A stretch of DNA of 64,000 nt, taken from contig CAJNOJ010000243.1 of the NCBI GenBank assembly GCA_905250025.1, forward strand, positions 68,912-132,911, read 5' to 3'. The DNA is from Adineta ricciae (lineage: Eukaryota > Rotifera > Eurotatoria > Adinetida > Adinetidae). A model generated the notes under the pieces. It searched no databases. It had not been told where the DNA came from and saw only the letters and a list, made by a program, of their open reading frames with translations. Shown here piece after piece: positions 2,148 through 58,529 of this stretch (the first letter of the stretch is position 1; each line of letters opens with the position of its first letter). Position numbers and translations under genes: made by a program.

Positions 2148-4301
<2,154 letters not shown>

Positions 4302-7918: not shown

Positions 7919-10169
<2,251 letters not shown>

Positions 10170-10186
10170 NAATGACTGATGACAGG

Positions 10187-24141: not shown

Positions 24142-25871
24142 TGAACTTTGGGGAAAAACAAAAGATTTTCATTTTCCGTAAACGACATTTTTCTATTCTA
24201 ACTTTCTCCAATCCTCTAATGCACTTTGTTACTTATCATAGATGTCACTTTATTTCTCTTTTCCTTCATTTATTTCGTCAATTGAAAGCAAAGAAATTGT
24301 TTTTCATTGAATTTATTTTTTTTTCAAAAACAAATTTTCTGTCGCAAAAAATTTGTTTATCGAACAAGTTTATCAGAAGAAAAAACAAATCAGTTTTCAT
24401 TTCATTTGTCAAAAGGGTAAGTAAAAATATGTTTTCTTTCAAAACCCGCAAATATTTTCTTCTTTCTTAACCACAAAATGAATGATTTCTTCATCAATGT
24501 TTTTCTTCAATTGACTAATTAACACAAAAGTCGTTTCTTATCTTATCTTTAATTAGAAAGAATTGCCTCTTTTTGTACTGAAACAAATCTTTGTTCGTTG
24601 TTGAGTTAATTGTAACGACTGACACGAGAAAAAGATAAATAAAGTAATTTGATCTGATTATTTATATAACATTGAGAGTAAAAGAATAAATAATGATTAA
24701 CAGATAAAATAATATTATTGTTTATTGAGAAGTTTTCTTCGAAGAAATTTATCTTTTGTTTAAAGAAAGGAAATTTCTATGATTTCTTTAAATAAAACCT
24801 TTATTTTAGTTTATTTGATTATCAGTTAAGAATTATGACATGATTTGTCTAGACTGATGATATAATTTAATTTAATTAGAAATTAGTTTAGAGAATTTCA
24901 TTTTCTTTTTTTTTTCTTTTTTTCATCTAAAATTTCTCTGATGAAATCGAAGTATATGAATAATAAACGAAGAGGGCGAGGGCAAATCAATAGGGCACAT
25001 TCACTATGTGCAAATAATAGGCAATGAATAACACACAGAGAGAGAATAAGAGAAAGAGAGAGAGAGAAACAACATAGTTAAGTAACATCCATTGATCAAT
25101 TGGAAAAAGAGAACAAGTTAAATCTTTATTCAGTTCAACGAAAAGTAAGCGAATTTCATCATGATCTTTTCTTTTTATTCAGAAAGTAAAATTTCATATG
25201 AGATTTATTAAGATTAACATTCATAAATTCACCTGAATAAATTGTCGAACAACATCAACCGACATTTACATATGCTTTTTTCTCATAAACAGATTTCATT
25301 TATCCTTCAATTGAGTCCTTCATGTCAAATTTTGTTTTTTATTTTTCAAGAAATTCTTTTGTTTTTTTCGTCTTTTTCGATCCGATCTCATAAATAAGTG
25401 TGTAGATAGTTCGAATATGTATCTGATGAAATCTGATTGGTTGTTTAAAAATATATGTATAAAACACGCAGAGAGAAAGGGAAGAAAAGGGTAAAACAAC
25501 TGATGTTGTTTCAACCACAAAGAAATATTCAACGAGAGAAAAAAGAACGACAAAGATGGTTGCTAACATTTACATTCGAAGAAGAGAAGAGAAAAAAAAA
25601 GCCACAGATTGTTTCTCATCGGTCGTTCTCTTTCTTTTCTTTTTACTCGATGTCTATCGTTTATTTACCTAGTAGACATTTTTCTCTCCTTCTCTGTGTC
25701 CCTTTCTCTCTCTCTCTCTGTTTTATTATCGAGGGTGAAGAATAACTTAGTAAAGATATAGAAAAGGACAATCGAACATTCAACACGTTGATTTCTCATG
25801 AAAGTTTTTGTCTTCTCATCTTTATTTTAGAAGAAAGATCTTTTATTAAATTCTTATAAGAAGAAGAATCA
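24142..25871. other. Intergenic between divergent ZDHHC and intermediate-filament genes
   Basis: The two genes diverge, so both promoters should lie here. I see GAGAGA tracts (about 25040-25070) and TC runs (about 25710), which could be GAGA-type or simple repeats. No convincing exon is present, and the open frames at 25320-25745 overlap on both strands and lack protein features. Confidence 0.4.
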
Positions 25872-27721
25872 ATGACAAGTCGAACAATACGTCGTACAGT
25901 TGAACATGGAATTCGTCAAGTGTCAGATATTGGTGGTGGAGGTAAAGGTGAAGCTTTAGCATTGATGCGTCAACAACGTGATCATGAAAAAGAAGAATTA
26001 ATTCAATTAAATGATCGATTTTCATCTTATCTCGATCGAGTGAAATATTTAGAACAAACAAATAAACAATTACAAAATACATTAGATCAATTAAGATCCA
26101 AATGGGGTTTAGATTCTGATCGTTTTAAATCTCAATATGAACCACAATTAAATGATTTAAGAAAAACGATCGATTTAGCGACAGTTGATAAAGCAAAAGG
26201 AGAAATTCGTGCTAAACGAGCTGAATTTGATTTACTTTATTATAAAAAATTAGCTGATGATATTAATCAATGGACAAATCAAGATAAATCGAAAATCAAT
26301 TCACTTCAATCGACCTTAGAAGAAAATCAACGAGAATTAGAACATCTTCAACGTTTAATGGGTGATTCAATGAGTGACATTGAAAAATATCGAAATGAAA
26401 TGAAACATTTATATGAAGAAATTTCTCGTCTTTTAATTGAATTAGATCAAGAAACAATGGCACGAATTAAAATTGAAAATGAAAAACAAACACTTGAAGA
26501 ACAAATTCCTTTTCTTTCAGCTATTCATGAACAAGAAATGAATGAATTAAGAAATTTATCTTCACCAAACATTGGTATTGATCCAACAACATTTTATAAA
26601 AATGAATTACAAAGAGCAATACGAGAAATTCGAAATGATTTTGAAAATCTTTCACGTTCACAACGAAGTGAATTAGAAGAATATTATCGAATTAAAACAG
26701 ATGAAATCGTTCAACAAGCACAAAAACAAAAACAACAACAAAATAATCAATTGGTTAATCAAGAAAATTCCAATCAACTTCGAATTAATATAAATGAAAC
26801 GAAAAAAGAAATGTTCGATTTACAACAAGATTATAATAATTATTTACAAAAAATGTCCGAATTAGAATCGAAATTAGAATCACTTAAACGAGGTAATTTC
26901 TTTCGTGTTGTTTTCTTTTTCCATTCCTCTTTTTCTTGATATTGTTTTGTAGAAAATGGAGATGTTATTGATGCACGTGAACGAGAAATCTTAGAACTTC
27001 GTTCTCATTTAAATGAATTAATGGCTTCATATGATGAAATTGTTTCAAATAAATCTTCATTAGAATTTGAAATCAATACATATCGTCGTTTACTTGAATC
27101 AGAAGAAGGAAGAATTCGTGAAAGTAAACATACAATTAAAACCACAACACATATTTCTCAATCATCATCTCATATTCAACAACATCAACCACCACCACCA
27201 CCACCTATTCGTCATCCATCACCACCACCAACACAAATCACTAAAACAGTTACTAATGAAAAAATTATTAATCAAACTGAAATGCAAGCGAAAACAACTT
27301 TTCAAAGATCTGCTAAAGGTTTGCTTCTTGTTTTTCTTCTCGTTTCCAACAAATTCATTTTCGATCTTTGTTTTCTTTTCAAGGACCAATTAATATTGAT
27401 GAATGTTCACCTGATGGCAAATATATTCAATTGGCGAATACATCAAAAAATAAAGATATTGATTTAACTGGATGGCGTCTTTTGAGAAAAGTGGATAATT
27501 CTCCTGAAATAACTTATTCACTTCCATCAGGTTTAAAATTATCATCAGGAAAATATTTAAAAATTCACGCACGTGGTCATGGAAAAGAAAAATTACCTTA
27601 TGATCTCGTTTTACCTACACATGATTCATGGGGTGTTGGAGTTAGTGTTGTTACACGTCTTTTAAATGAACAAAACGAAGAAAAAGCAACACATATACAA
27701 AAAACTGTTTATGCTTCGTAA
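25872..27721 (+). CDS. Intermediate filament protein with lamin tail domain (cytoplasmic type)
   Basis: Exons 25872..26892, 26953..27318 and 27384..27721 give 574 residues. A short head is followed by an alpha-helical rod that starts at the helix-initiation motif (LNDRFSSYLDRVKYLEQTNK, about residues 46-65) and ends at the helix-termination motif (EINTYRRLLESEEGR). The linker is Pro/His-rich, and then comes a lamin-tail immunoglobulin-fold domain (GKYIQLANTSKNKDIDLTGW, YSLPSGLKLSSGKYLKIHA). No CaaX prenylation box and no clear nuclear localisation signal are present, so it is a cytoplasmic filament of the invertebrate type rather than a nuclear lamin. The long coil 1 (the 42-residue lamin-length insert) fits invertebrate cytoplasmic filaments. 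Confidence 0.92.
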
Positions 27722-50099: not shown

Positions 50100-50740
50100 C
50101 AAAAAAAAGAAACGAAGTTCTATCCAAAAGATATTGACGATGAATATAATTCAACAATGAAAACAATTCAAGCAGAACGGTCAACGAAGATGTTCATAGT
50201 AATACGTTTTTCTTTCGAGTTCGGTTAAAAAAATCAGAGAAAAAATTCTTGGAGATTTTAATCTATTCATTTACATGAATGATTTCATATGATTTCGATG
50301 TTATTCAATAAAATCCAGAAAAGAGGAGAAAATATAACATTTACCTATCATTCTCTTACCGATATACTTACTTTTCATCGATAGAAAAGGTTTCGTACAA
50401 ATAAATGAAAAAGATGAGAAGAAATACGAATTATTGGGAGTGACTCGATTTCATTTGAATTTATATGTAGCTCCATCTTCTGTGGAAGTTTTTATTTTAT
50501 TTCAATTACATTTGAAAATCATTAACTTGAAAATCTAGTTTTTACATTCCTCGATAACTGATTGATACATAGAATGCACCAATGATAACATCTTTTTCTT
50601 CTCTTAGTGAATCAGTCAGTGATTTAAATCAATTACCAGATTTAATTTCTGAATTAATTGAAGATCCAATTTATCGAAAACATTTATCTTTTCGTGGAAA
50701 ATTCATTCCAATGATTGCTAAAAGTGATACAAGAAATGTT
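50100..50740 (+). pseudogene. Truncated duplicate of the PEPC locus
   Basis: From about 50100 to 50605 the sequence matches the upstream flank of the PEPC-like gene (about 55190-55705). It then jumps to the gene's interior: SESVSDLNQLPDLISELIED and IYRKHLSFRGKFIPMIAKSD correspond to 57113-57240. About 1.4 kb of the 5' coding part is missing, a small deletion follows SDT, and homology ends near 50740. It is clearly non-coding as PEPC. Confidence 0.75.
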
Positions 50741-55190: not shown

Positions 55191-55760
55191 CAGGAAAATA
55201 ATATATACGAAAGCGAAGTTTCGTATGAAAGATATTGATGATAAGTATAGGTCAACAGAAATTTTCATACCATTGGTTTTTTTAAAGTTTGGTCAAGAAA
55301 ATGAAAAGAAATTCTTGAGGATTTTGATTGATTAATCTGTGCATGAATGATTTAATATGATTTCGATGTTATTTAACGAAATCCAGAAAAGAGAAGAAAA
55401 TATAACATTTACCTTTCGTTCTCTTATCGATATATATATACTTTTCATCAATAAGAAAGGTTTCGTACAAATAAATAAAAAAGGTGAGAAGAAACACGAA
55501 TTATTAGGGGTGACTCGATTCCATTTGAATTTATATGTAGCTCCATCTTCTGTACAAGTTTTTATCTCCATTACATTTGGAAATCAAACGAATTGTTTTG
55601 ATTTGAAAAGAATTTTTTGTTTGTTGGAACGTGAATAAATGAATTACATTCCTCGATAACTGATTGATACATCGAATGCGCCAATAATAAAATCTTGTTC
55701 TTCTCCTTACACTCGGTAAACTTTGTTTGTTCTTCTTCTTATTTTTAGATAAGATTGATC
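55191..55760. other. PEPC upstream region (duplicated at about 50.1 kb)
   Basis: Contains a frame 55357-55638 that reads FHLNLYVAPSSVQVFI, partly conserved in the duplicate at 50.3-50.5 kb (with stops there). It could be a 3' exon of another gene or leader sequence. An acceptor-like TTATTTTTAG lies just before the PEPC ATG, so a non-coding first exon may be spliced on. Confidence 0.4.
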
Positions 55761-58529
55761 ATGGAAGATGAAATTCTTGAATTGTCCGATGATCAAAAAA
55801 CGATTCGATATCGATTTATTAGTCAAATCGCGAAAGAAAACAATAAAATCGCCGGTTATTTGAGAAAGATCTTTCATATTTCAACAAATGGTGATCGAAA
55901 AAAACGAATTGATGTTTATCAAAAGATTCTTGATGAATTACCATTTGGAAGTGTTGATCGAGAAAAATTATTGGAATATTATGCAAAAATTATGGATTTA
56001 GAACGTCGTGTTCGAAAATTCGTCAATGCAAAGATTTACAATGAAAAAATTGAAAATCCTCAAAGTACGGCAACTGCTGATCAATTCGATTATGTTCTCA
56101 AACGAATGTTCGAAGAAAATGTTGAACCAGAAATCGTGAAAAAATTCTACGATGAAAATGCTTTTGCTATTTTTAGTTTAACAATGCATCCAACAAATCC
56201 AACATCAATGGAATATACAATTAAAGGTGGAATTCGATTTGATAAATATTTAGATGATCAACAAGATTATACAGAACATTTAAAAATCATTCAAGATTTA
56301 CCTTTAGCAGGAAAAAAGAAAACAATTGAAGATGAAGTAAATGAAACAATTGCAATTCTTGATATGATTTATGAAACAGCACCAAAATTAAGAGAACAAC
56401 TTATTGATACATTGAAAAATTATCCAACTTATGAAAAAGTTCTTGATGTGAATATTCCGAGAATTCAAGCATCAATTTGGCCAGCAGGAGATGGTGATGG
56501 AAATGAAAATGCTGATATTAAAGCTCTTAAAAAAGCCATTCAACAATTAAAACAAAGAATTAAAGAATTATATTTAAATGATATTCAACAATTATCTTCA
56601 CAAAATAAAAATCATATTGAACAAAAATTAATTGAGAATTCTTATGAAACACCACAACAATTAATTGAAGATTTACAAAAACTTGAAAATACTGATGATT
56701 TAATTTATAAAGTTCGAACATTTCAATTTTATTATGCACAAATTGATATTCGACATAATGCCATTGATATTATGCAAACTTTACAACATTTATTAAAAGT
56801 CAATCAATTACATGATGATTTCTTATCTCTATCGTTGAAAGAACAAAAAGATTTGATTAATAAATGGTTAAATGATGAGAAAACCATTGACAAGTTAAAA
56901 TCAACGAATCAAGATGAATTAACGAAAAGTAATAAAACAGCTGGAAGAATCTTTGGTCGATTGAAATTAATTCCAAATGATTTGGATATTTTTAATAAAT
57001 TAATCATTGCAGAAACGAAATCGATTGTCAATGTTTTAGGTGTTTTTCTTCTTTTAAAAGCCACGGGAAATTGTGTTGCTGAAAAAGGAACAGTTCTCGA
57101 TATTGTCACATTAAGTGAATCAGTCAGTGATTTAAATCAATTACCAAATTTAATTTCTGAATTAATTGAAGATCCAATTTATCGAAAACATTTATCTTTT
57201 CGTGGAAAATTAATTCCAATGATTGCTAAAAGTGATACAGTAAGAAGAAATGGTCGTGGTGCTGAATCATCTCAAGAAGAAGCATTAGGAAAAGTTTATG
57301 CAATGGTTGAAGAATTTCGTTCAAAATATCCTGAATTAAAATATTTAACAATTAATGGTTTTAGTGGTGGTGGTGCTGCTTTACAACGTGGTGGTGGTCG
57401 AGTCACTGAAGTTCCACATAATAATGGACGTGTTGCACGATATTTTCATGCGAAAACAATTGGTCCATCATTATTAACAATTCAAGGTCATCAAATGCAA
57501 ATTCTTTTTTCTCCAACATCAATTTGTTTACATATGTTAGAATCTTTAATTGCACAAAATCTTCATGCTCGTGTTCAAACTGAATTGAAATCTGATGGAA
57601 CACATTATGTTCCACCACGACGTGCACCTGATGGATATGATCAAAATCATCATATTAATAATTTTCATCAAGCTTGTCAACAAATGAGACAAACTTATAC
57701 AGAATTTATGGGAAATCTTGATGATGATGAAAATCCTGAATCGGGAAATAATAGTTTTAACCAATTATTTGCAAATGCACCGTGGGTTTCGGTTATTTTA
57801 GGAAATCTCAGTTCGCGTCCATCGAAACGTGGTGCAACTGGATCGAATACAGATGAAATAACTGTAAGAAGTATTCGAGGTGATCAACCAAAATTATTAA
57901 ATAATCGAGCAATTACTGTTGAAAGAATTTCAGCACATAGTGGAACACATTTTTTAACTTATTTAAGTGTTTTTGAAGGTTTAAATTCAATTAATCGCAC
58001 AGAATTACATGATATGTATATTTGTGGCAAATCAGCACGAGATTTTATGAGAAATACAGCTTTATCATTACATATGACTGATTTTGATTTAGCTTGGGAA
58101 ACAATGATTGGAGAAAAAAGACCAAATAAAGAAGAATTAATGAAATTAGCCAAACAATTTGATCGAAAACAAAATACAAACAATTCTAATAAATCAATTT
58201 TAGCTTGGCTTGAATTTTATGCATTAGATGTAGCGAAATTAGTTCATAAATGTATTCTTGGTGAAGATCCAAAAGAAGATTTTAATTTACAAACACCATT
58301 AAAAGCAAGTTTTTCTAATTTAGCACAACAATTAGCAATTCGAGAAGAATCTGATGAATTTGGAAGATATGCTGAAGCTCAAATGACCAATTTTATTAAT
58401 CATAATTTAGATCATGTTTTAACAGAAAGAGAAATGATTACTTTACAATCATGTTATGCAGCTGCTGATGTTGTCAATGCACCAGAAGGTGGTTTAAATA
58501 TTGAATTAACAAGAAAAAAAATCAACTAA
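55761..58529 (+). CDS. Phosphoenolpyruvate carboxylase-like protein, intronless, probably horizontally acquired
   Basis: An uninterrupted frame of 922 codons, the length of bacterial and plant PEPC (about 880-970). Classical PEPC adds bicarbonate to phosphoenolpyruvate to make oxaloacetate. Aligned motifs: LTMHPTNPT (family LTAHPTE, catalytic His kept), WPAGDGDGNENAD (family WIGGDRDGNPNV), GKLIPMIAKSDT (family VMIGYSDS, Asp kept) and NGFSGGGAALQRGGGR (family FHGRGGSIGRGG). GNLSSRPSKRGATG matches the SRPAKR region. In the loop motif the family His and first Arg are Ser and Gly, while the second Arg remains. The PWIFAWTQ segment and the C-terminal RNTG are not recognisable. Catalysis is therefore uncertain. 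No introns and host-like AT-rich codons suggest an old transfer. The in-frame TTG at 55755 was rejected as start. Confidence 0.8.
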   Translation: MEDEILELSDDQKTIRYRFISQIAKENNKIAGYLRKIFHISTNGDRKKRIDVYQKILDELPFGSVDREKLLEYYAKIMDLERRVRKFVNAKIYNEKIENPQSTATADQFDYVLKRMFEENVEPEIVKKFYDENAFAIFSLTMHPTNPTSMEYTIKGGIRFDKYLDDQQDYTEHLKIIQDLPLAGKKKTIEDEVNETIAILDMIYETAPKLREQLIDTLKNYPTYEKVLDVNIPRIQASIWPAGDGDGNENADIKALKKAIQQLKQRIKELYLNDIQQLSSQNKNHIEQKLIENSYETPQQLIEDLQKLENTDDLIYKVRTFQFYYAQIDIRHNAIDIMQTLQHLLKVNQLHDDFLSLSLKEQKDLINKWLNDEKTIDKLKSTNQDELTKSNKTAGRIFGRLKLIPNDLDIFNKLIIAETKSIVNVLGVFLLLKATGNCVAEKGTVLDIVTLSESVSDLNQLPNLISELIEDPIYRKHLSFRGKLIPMIAKSDTVRRNGRGAESSQEEALGKVYAMVEEFRSKYPELKYLTINGFSGGGAALQRGGGRVTEVPHNNGRVARYFHAKTIGPSLLTIQGHQMQILFSPTSICLHMLESLIAQNLHARVQTELKSDGTHYVPPRRAPDGYDQNHHINNFHQACQQMRQTYTEFMGNLDDDENPESGNNSFNQLFANAPWVSVILGNLSSRPSKRGATGSNTDEITVRSIRGDQPKLLNNRAITVERISAHSGTHFLTYLSVFEGLNSINRTELHDMYICGKSARDFMRNTALSLHMTDFDLAWETMIGEKRPNKEELMKLAKQFDRKQNTNNSNKSILAWLEFYALDVAKLVHKCILGEDPKEDFNLQTPLKASFSNLAQQLAIREESDEFGRYAEAQMTNFINHNLDHVLTEREMITLQSCYAAADVVNAPEGGLNIELTRKKIN

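Follow-up and report, generated by a model that had tools for sequence, protein, structure and literature searches.

Does a bdelloid rotifer possess a working PEPC of bacterial origin, or does the locus analyzed here encode a PEPC-derived protein with another role? The question is raised by a gene in a stretch of 64,000 nucleotides from the Adineta ricciae genome (hereafter the window). A sequence-only reading of this DNA had stated that animals normally lack PEPC. This fits the available part of a 2012 survey, where only two animal hits were given, from tick and platypus and both doubtful (PMC3521007), but not the foreign PEPC transcript reported from A. ricciae in the same year by Boschetti et al., who proposed CO2 fixation (PMC3499245). 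Because of that transcript the mere presence of a PEPC in an animal is no novelty. The published transcript shares species and annotation with the window gene, but the accessible text of the report does not state which of two PEPC genes was meant and does not mention active-site changes (PMC3499245).

The window gene is an uninterrupted frame of 922 codons with ordered PEPC motifs. Its features are as follows, with replaced and retained residues in E. coli numbering.

55740-55748, forward strand: TATTTTTAG, a possible splice acceptor identified by eye, 12 bases 5' of the ATG, with a pyrimidine-rich stretch before it
55761-58529, forward strand: intronless gene for a divergent PEPC-family protein of 922 aa, stop codon included
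56184-56198, forward strand: MHPTN, residues 142-146; catalytic His retained (H143 = E. coli His138), Glu141 replaced by Asn146
57219-57248, forward strand: MIAKSDTVRR, residues 487-496; Met538 and Asp543 retained, Tyr541 replaced by Lys490 and Lys546 by Arg495
57360-57395, forward strand: mobile loop FSGGGAALQRGG, residues 534-545; His579 replaced by Ser535 and Arg581 by Gly537, Arg587 retained as Arg543
57813-57830, forward strand: SRPSKR motif, residues 685-690; Arg686 = E. coli Arg699
58074-58076, forward strand: Met772, replacing Lys773 of what we take to be the aspartate inhibitor site
58476-58526, forward strand: C-terminus NAPEGGLNIELTRKKIN, replacing RNTG

The TATTTTTAG before the ATG is possibly the putative acceptor of a 5'UTR intron or of a spliced leader. 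In PEPC we take Glu506 and Asp543 to be the metal ligands and Trp248, Leu504 and Met538 to form the CO2 pocket. Arg396, Arg581 and Arg713 presumably contact the PEP phosphate, and Lys773, Arg832, Arg587 and Asn881 presumably make up the aspartate site; a role of the C-terminal tetrapeptide is assumed likewise. In the window protein His138, the two metal ligands and Arg396, Arg587, Arg699 and Arg713 are retained as H143, E453, D492, R331, R543, R686 and R716. Mapping of the E. coli residues thus gave a divided result: His138, Arg587, Arg699 and Arg713 are in place, and His579 and Arg581 are replaced. The last two are the loop His and Arg whose loss had been noticed from the letters, and the missing RNTG end was also correctly read. 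The available part of one paper reports that His138, His579 and Arg587 matter for catalysis (PMC11832675).

The protein has the PEPC fold across its full length, with pLDDT below 50 in mobile-loop residues 539-545 and C-terminal residues 906-922. It matches Pfam PF00311 with 111.7 bits (gathering score 22.4), the family matched by 23/23 rows of set A1. The frame and the motif order first described are confirmed. Against NF000584, the NCBIfam equivalog model for PEPC with a cut-off of 815 bits, it scores only 104.3. Four related proteins (P0034, P0040, P0068 and P0078) score 108-125 bits and the canonical P0103 scores 985. Compared with canonical PEPC (EC 4.1.1.31, PF00311; E. coli Ppc, maize, Arabidopsis), the window protein is 14-18% identical to the solved structures, carries Gly581, Ser579, Lys541, Arg546 and Met773, and has no RNTG end. 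It also differs from archaeal-type PEPC (PF14010; 3odm), whose listed chain has 530 residues, and no PF14010 match was found at E 0.001.

The divergent subfamily and the origin of the rotifer gene

Residues were counted in a subfamily set drawn from proteins P0001-P0087. Four proteins shorter than 700 aa (P0028, P0029, P0030 and P0044) were removed beforehand, and P0045 was taken out of the remaining 83 for its canonical residues, leaving 82. The 51 canonical sequences used for comparison consist of 46 from the tail of the divergent-profile search, P0045, E. coli Ppc and loci L018-L020, and are not a fair sample of canonical PEPCs. In the best 120 of 429 matches of the profile search, the score falls from 525 bits at P0087 to 145 bits at P0088, and proteins are canonical from there down. 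The branch between the divergent subfamily and canonical PEPC is fully supported in three trees. The subfamily may be larger than counted, because scoring in the two broad protein searches was limited to the candidates with the most shared words (7991 and 7997).

The Arg581 column holds Gly in 80 of the 82 members (Phe in P0036, His in P0087) and Arg in 51/51 canonical sequences, and Lys occupies the Tyr/Phe541 column in 82/82 members versus 0/51. Lys546 is replaced by Arg and Gln397 by His in all 82, and Glu141 by Asn in 80. Met is found at the Lys773 column in 74/82 (Lys in only 33/51 canonical sequences), and Pro at the terminal Gly883 column in 79/82 (Gly in 29/51). At the His579 column the members have Asn (47), Ser (30), His (3) or another residue (2); this His is not invariant outside the subfamily either, because 21/51 canonical sequences have Asp. 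His138, Arg396, Glu506, Trp248, Leu504 and Met538 are retained in 82/82 members, and Asp543, Arg587, Arg699 and Arg713 in 81/82. When all E. coli-numbered columns were scanned, these ten catalytic-core residues were all among the 35 positions at least 95% identical in subfamily and canonical group alike. Only four positions are fixed differently at 95% in the two groups (Gly540Ala, Lys546Arg, Arg581Gly and Gln723His), the first three of which lie in two active-site loops.

Besides the bdelloid proteins, the other named members are bacterial, mostly from uncultured Alphaproteobacteria. Among the matches listed, the proteins named by source include two from Pseudomonadota and Rickettsiales and one from Myxococcota MAGs. 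The genome-contig relatives belong to the subfamily at 15 of 18 loci, under the titles Micavibrio, Alphaproteobacteria, Proteobacteria, Rickettsiales and Rickettsia typhi MAGs; the other three, L018-L020, were rejected as members since their residues are those of canonical PEPCs. Viral contigs scanned with A2 gave 161 pattern matches and no relative.

Named relatives of the window gene occur in three bdelloid genera. The closest match among those listed is an A. ricciae protein (97%), followed by Adineta vaga (84%) and by Adineta steineri, Rotaria species and Didymodactylos carnosus (66-75%). One quick tree of 84 rows and two careful trees of 41 rows each, with a mixture model, were constructed. 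All three recover a single, fully supported bdelloid clade within the divergent subfamily and keep canonical PEPCs separate. This clade has 13 rows (five assigned by identity), eight rows (one by identity) and six rows (all named or from the animal's own genome), respectively. Its sister is a pair of JGI metagenome proteins, P0026 and P0027, which are the nearest sequences at 53-54% identity; a bacterial identity of this immediate sister is not proven. The nesting among bacterial sequences and the presence in several bdelloid genera support the proposal that bdelloid rotifers acquired the divergent PEPC from a bacterium by an old horizontal transfer; the exact donor branch is unsure because long branches and uneven composition were flagged in the trees. 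The sequence-only reading had proposed such an acquisition, and protein search and trees agree with it in placing a single bdelloid clade, common to three genera, within an otherwise bacterial-named subfamily. A change of the protein after domestication is not supported, since the same replacements are already fixed in non-rotifer relatives. The changed active site was, by this comparison, acquired as such: the altered residues were inherited with the gene and mark a subfamily, and were not made in the animal.

We consider it very improbable that the window gene is contaminating bacterial DNA or an assembly error. The closest non-rotifer relatives are indeed metagenome proteins without organism name, but named orthologues 66-97% identical exist in Adineta, Rotaria and Didymodactylos, and the codon use of the gene is rotifer-like. 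Although no animal-kind gene was identified immediately beside the second copy on contig C301 (described below), the two homologous genomic copies lie on contigs of 140,132 bases (window) and 121 kb and are collinear over 4.7 kb at 93%, and animal genes are found elsewhere in the window. Among twenty neighbouring ORFs scanned, the well-matched ones are animal-type genes (NAC/HYPK, retinoblastoma, intermediate filament and protein kinases). A MINDY-3/4 fragment is over its cut-off, and rhodopsin-type receptor and WD40 matches are below theirs. A single N near the gene also speaks for an assembly problem:

58897, no strand: single N, at which collinearity with the C301 copy stops

At the matching point C301 has an ORF of 453 aa, which gave no Pfam match, and the window seems to keep only its last ~50 codons. 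The MINDY match lies on the other side of 58897 and covers profile positions 12-159 of 344. An assembly join at this base is likely.

Gene copies and a second PEPC in the same animal

Three PEPC loci were found by searching the 130.5-Mb assembly of A. ricciae: the window gene on C243, a copy at C301:57041-59806, and C18:717048-720234 on the reverse strand. The C301 copy is intact and identical to P0001, and its protein is 97.0% identical to that of the window. Between the two copies dN is 0.0135 and dS 0.145, with dN/dS of 0.09 (NG86), 0.04 (YN00) or 0.11 (LWL85), and judged from these ratios the divergent PEPC is evidently under purifying selection in the rotifer. A total of 26 sequences were taken as bdelloid, 13 named or from the window and 13 assigned at 68-77% identity. 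His138, Arg396, Glu506 and Arg587 are retained in 26/26 of them, and Asp543, Arg699 and Arg713 in 25/26. P0006, from a second A. vaga copy and 885 aa long, departs from this: Asp492 and Arg686 are replaced by His and Arg716 by Thr, and a stretch after the Arg716 motif is missing; this protein is probably a decaying duplicate, judging from its sequence.

The third locus (L032) encodes P0134, a canonical PEPC of 930 aa after splicing of seven GT-AG introns of 52-59 bp, which is fully identical to a deposited A. ricciae protein. It shares 438 of 876 aligned residues with E. coli Ppc, agrees with it at 19/19 checked positions and has the RNTG end. Like the window gene, P0134 is found in an animal, is of bacterial origin and is also present in Adineta and Rotaria, with named orthologues at 75-85%; none from Didymodactylos was found among the 120 matches listed. 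Unlike the window gene, it has Halomonas-like relatives (the nearest bacteria among the matches listed, 63%), seven introns, all canonical residues and the RNTG end, and its GC3 is 0.25 versus 0.11. In a joint tree the two rotifer PEPC clades lie on opposite sides of a deep split, the canonical one together with Halomonas-like rows (100/99). This position of the two clades indicates that bdelloids took up bacterial PEPC-family genes at least twice. The P0134 gene is a clean case of introns within a foreign gene.

Bacterial carriers and proposed function

We propose that the window gene encodes a working PEPC of this subfamily, acquired from a bacterium and kept by the rotifers, with a rebuilt phosphate clamp and insensitive to aspartate and malate, which would join PEP and bicarbonate to oxaloacetate; we regard this as moderately probable. 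Oxaloacetate synthesis is most likely kept because the protein retains its catalytic His, its metal ligands, the residues of the CO2 pocket and four important Arg residues. In the clamp Arg581 is lost, and the charge for the PEP phosphate would probably be supplied by Lys541 (Lys490) and by the Arg replacing Lys546 (Arg495). With the Lys773 inhibitor contact and the C-terminal tetrapeptide lost, insensitivity to aspartate and malate would be expected.

The bacterial carriers also support this reading. Fourteen genomes were analyzed, the holders of L003-L014, L016 and L017 (L015 was left out), all of them MAGs that may be incomplete. The divergent gene is the sole PF00311 gene in 14/14. Pyruvate carboxylase over the cut-off was found in 0/14 (the control passed in 3/14 known genomes), and ATP-PEPCK, GTP-PEPCK and archaeal PEPC in 0/14 each. 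Citrate synthase is present in 14/14, malic enzyme in 12/14, and the PEP-producing PPDK in 13/14. In cells that have citrate synthase and a source of PEP but no further carboxylase of this kind, the variant most likely forms oxaloacetate. Two points weaken the argument. Malic enzyme run backwards is a possible alternative for replenishing the cycle, and the pyruvate carboxylase model gives weaker, partial matches of a biotin-carboxylase-like kind in 14/14 genomes, with coverage that resembles other biotin-dependent and acyl-synthase proteins.

At five loci (L010, L011, L013, L014 and L017) the PEPC gene is directly followed, on its own strand, by argG, the gene for argininosuccinate synthase, named by family search in L011 and by BLAST cluster in the others, and argH is over the cut-off in 6 of 7 genomes asked. 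Oxaloacetate is converted to aspartate, which is used by ArgG, and this neighbour favors a working PEPC, but it is confined to one branch. The same five loci and L016 carry, upstream and on the opposite strand, folC, a BrkB-family gene and a GNAT-like ORF (narrowly below the Pfam cut-off at 20.5 bits), with families named from L011. The L016 contig ends inside the PEPC gene, L015 ends inside or near it, and L012 has other neighbours. L003-L009 have no adjacent neighbour in common, only two clusters of three loci some kilobases off. A gene neighbourhood common to the whole subfamily was thus rejected.

The working PEPC is further supported by the separateness of the subfamily, with the catalytic core among the 35 positions common to both groups, and by the low dN/dS between window and C301 copies. 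Against it, Arg581 (51/51 in canonical sequences) and His579 are gone, the latter reported to matter for catalysis in the available part of PMC11832675. With the pocket reshaped by these two losses, the subfamily might instead convert PEP or a similar acid in another way, for instance by hydrolysing PEP or by carboxylating a different enol phosphate. Of the four completely switched positions, three are in active-site loops; Glu141Asn (80/82) and Gln397His, Lys546Arg and Tyr541Lys (82/82 each) are fixed next to these, and NF000584 gives 104-125 bits against 815 in 5/5 subfamily members tested. However, the CO2-pocket and metal residues are unchanged, and the 14 bacterial genomes gave no other PEPC, PEPCK or over-cut-off pyruvate carboxylase; we consider a different reaction rather unlikely. 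The rotifer itself keeps both a canonical and a divergent gene, which also speaks for a different reaction. With a canonical PEPC already present in the animal, the divergent enzyme would not have to duplicate its role, and may add a feedback-insensitive route or do other work.

Another alternative is a protein derived from PEPC that has lost catalysis or is regulatory; it might pair with the canonical PEPC of the rotifer, in the way known from certain plant PEPC types. The loss of Arg581, His579 and the C-terminal tetrapeptide is in line with this, and P0006 of A. vaga has further lost Asp492, Arg686 and Arg716, but P0006 looks like one decaying copy and not a rule. A canonical partner is absent in 14/14 bacterial genomes, and the remaining catalytic residues are retained in 81 or 82 of 82 sequences. 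We consider a dead or regulatory protein improbable.

Novelty and minor features of the window

The acquisition is real, but events of this class were known before and it is partly in print. A description of the divergent PEPC subfamily was not found in the open-licence literature searched. We give an even chance to the full picture: an unrecognised PEPC class, its phosphate clamp rebuilt and its aspartate/malate brake gone, that is the sole carboxylase making oxaloacetate in many uncultured Alphaproteobacteria and was captured by an animal lineage alongside a canonical PEPC, so that the animal would hold two bacterial PEPCs of separate origin and different control. A conserved natural family without Arg581 illustrates a way of rebuilding the PEP site, and the subfamily might be a ready-made feedback-insensitive PEPC. 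The published idea of rotifer CO2 fixation needs re-testing gene by gene, because the variant and an ordinary bacterial-derived PEPC coexist; the idea now concerns two genes, each open to testing and each from a separate bacterial source. The foreign PEPC with seven introns and the foreign PEPC with none also make a matched pair for the study of intron gain.

A truncated duplicate was found 5 kb upstream of the PEPC gene:

50179-50731, forward strand: truncated duplicate of 5' flank and coding sequence

It copies 55250-55565 (84%), 55644-55709 (91%) and then coding bases 57114-57239 (98.4%), so that the 5' flank is fused to a 126-bp coding piece, codons 452-493. The flank (84-91%) and coding (98.4%) parts differ in apparent age.

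Further isolated single Ns occur in the window at 10170, 42645, 45629, 49680, 62087 and 63273. The intermediate-filament gene at 25860-27464 consists of two ORFs in the same frame, split by one stop codon (26937-26939) and matching profile positions 2-255 and then 264-312; the interruption may be a short intron or a real stop. Two protein-kinase ORFs (2148-3563 and 8857-10176) on the same strand have very similar family matches and are perhaps a tandem duplicate.
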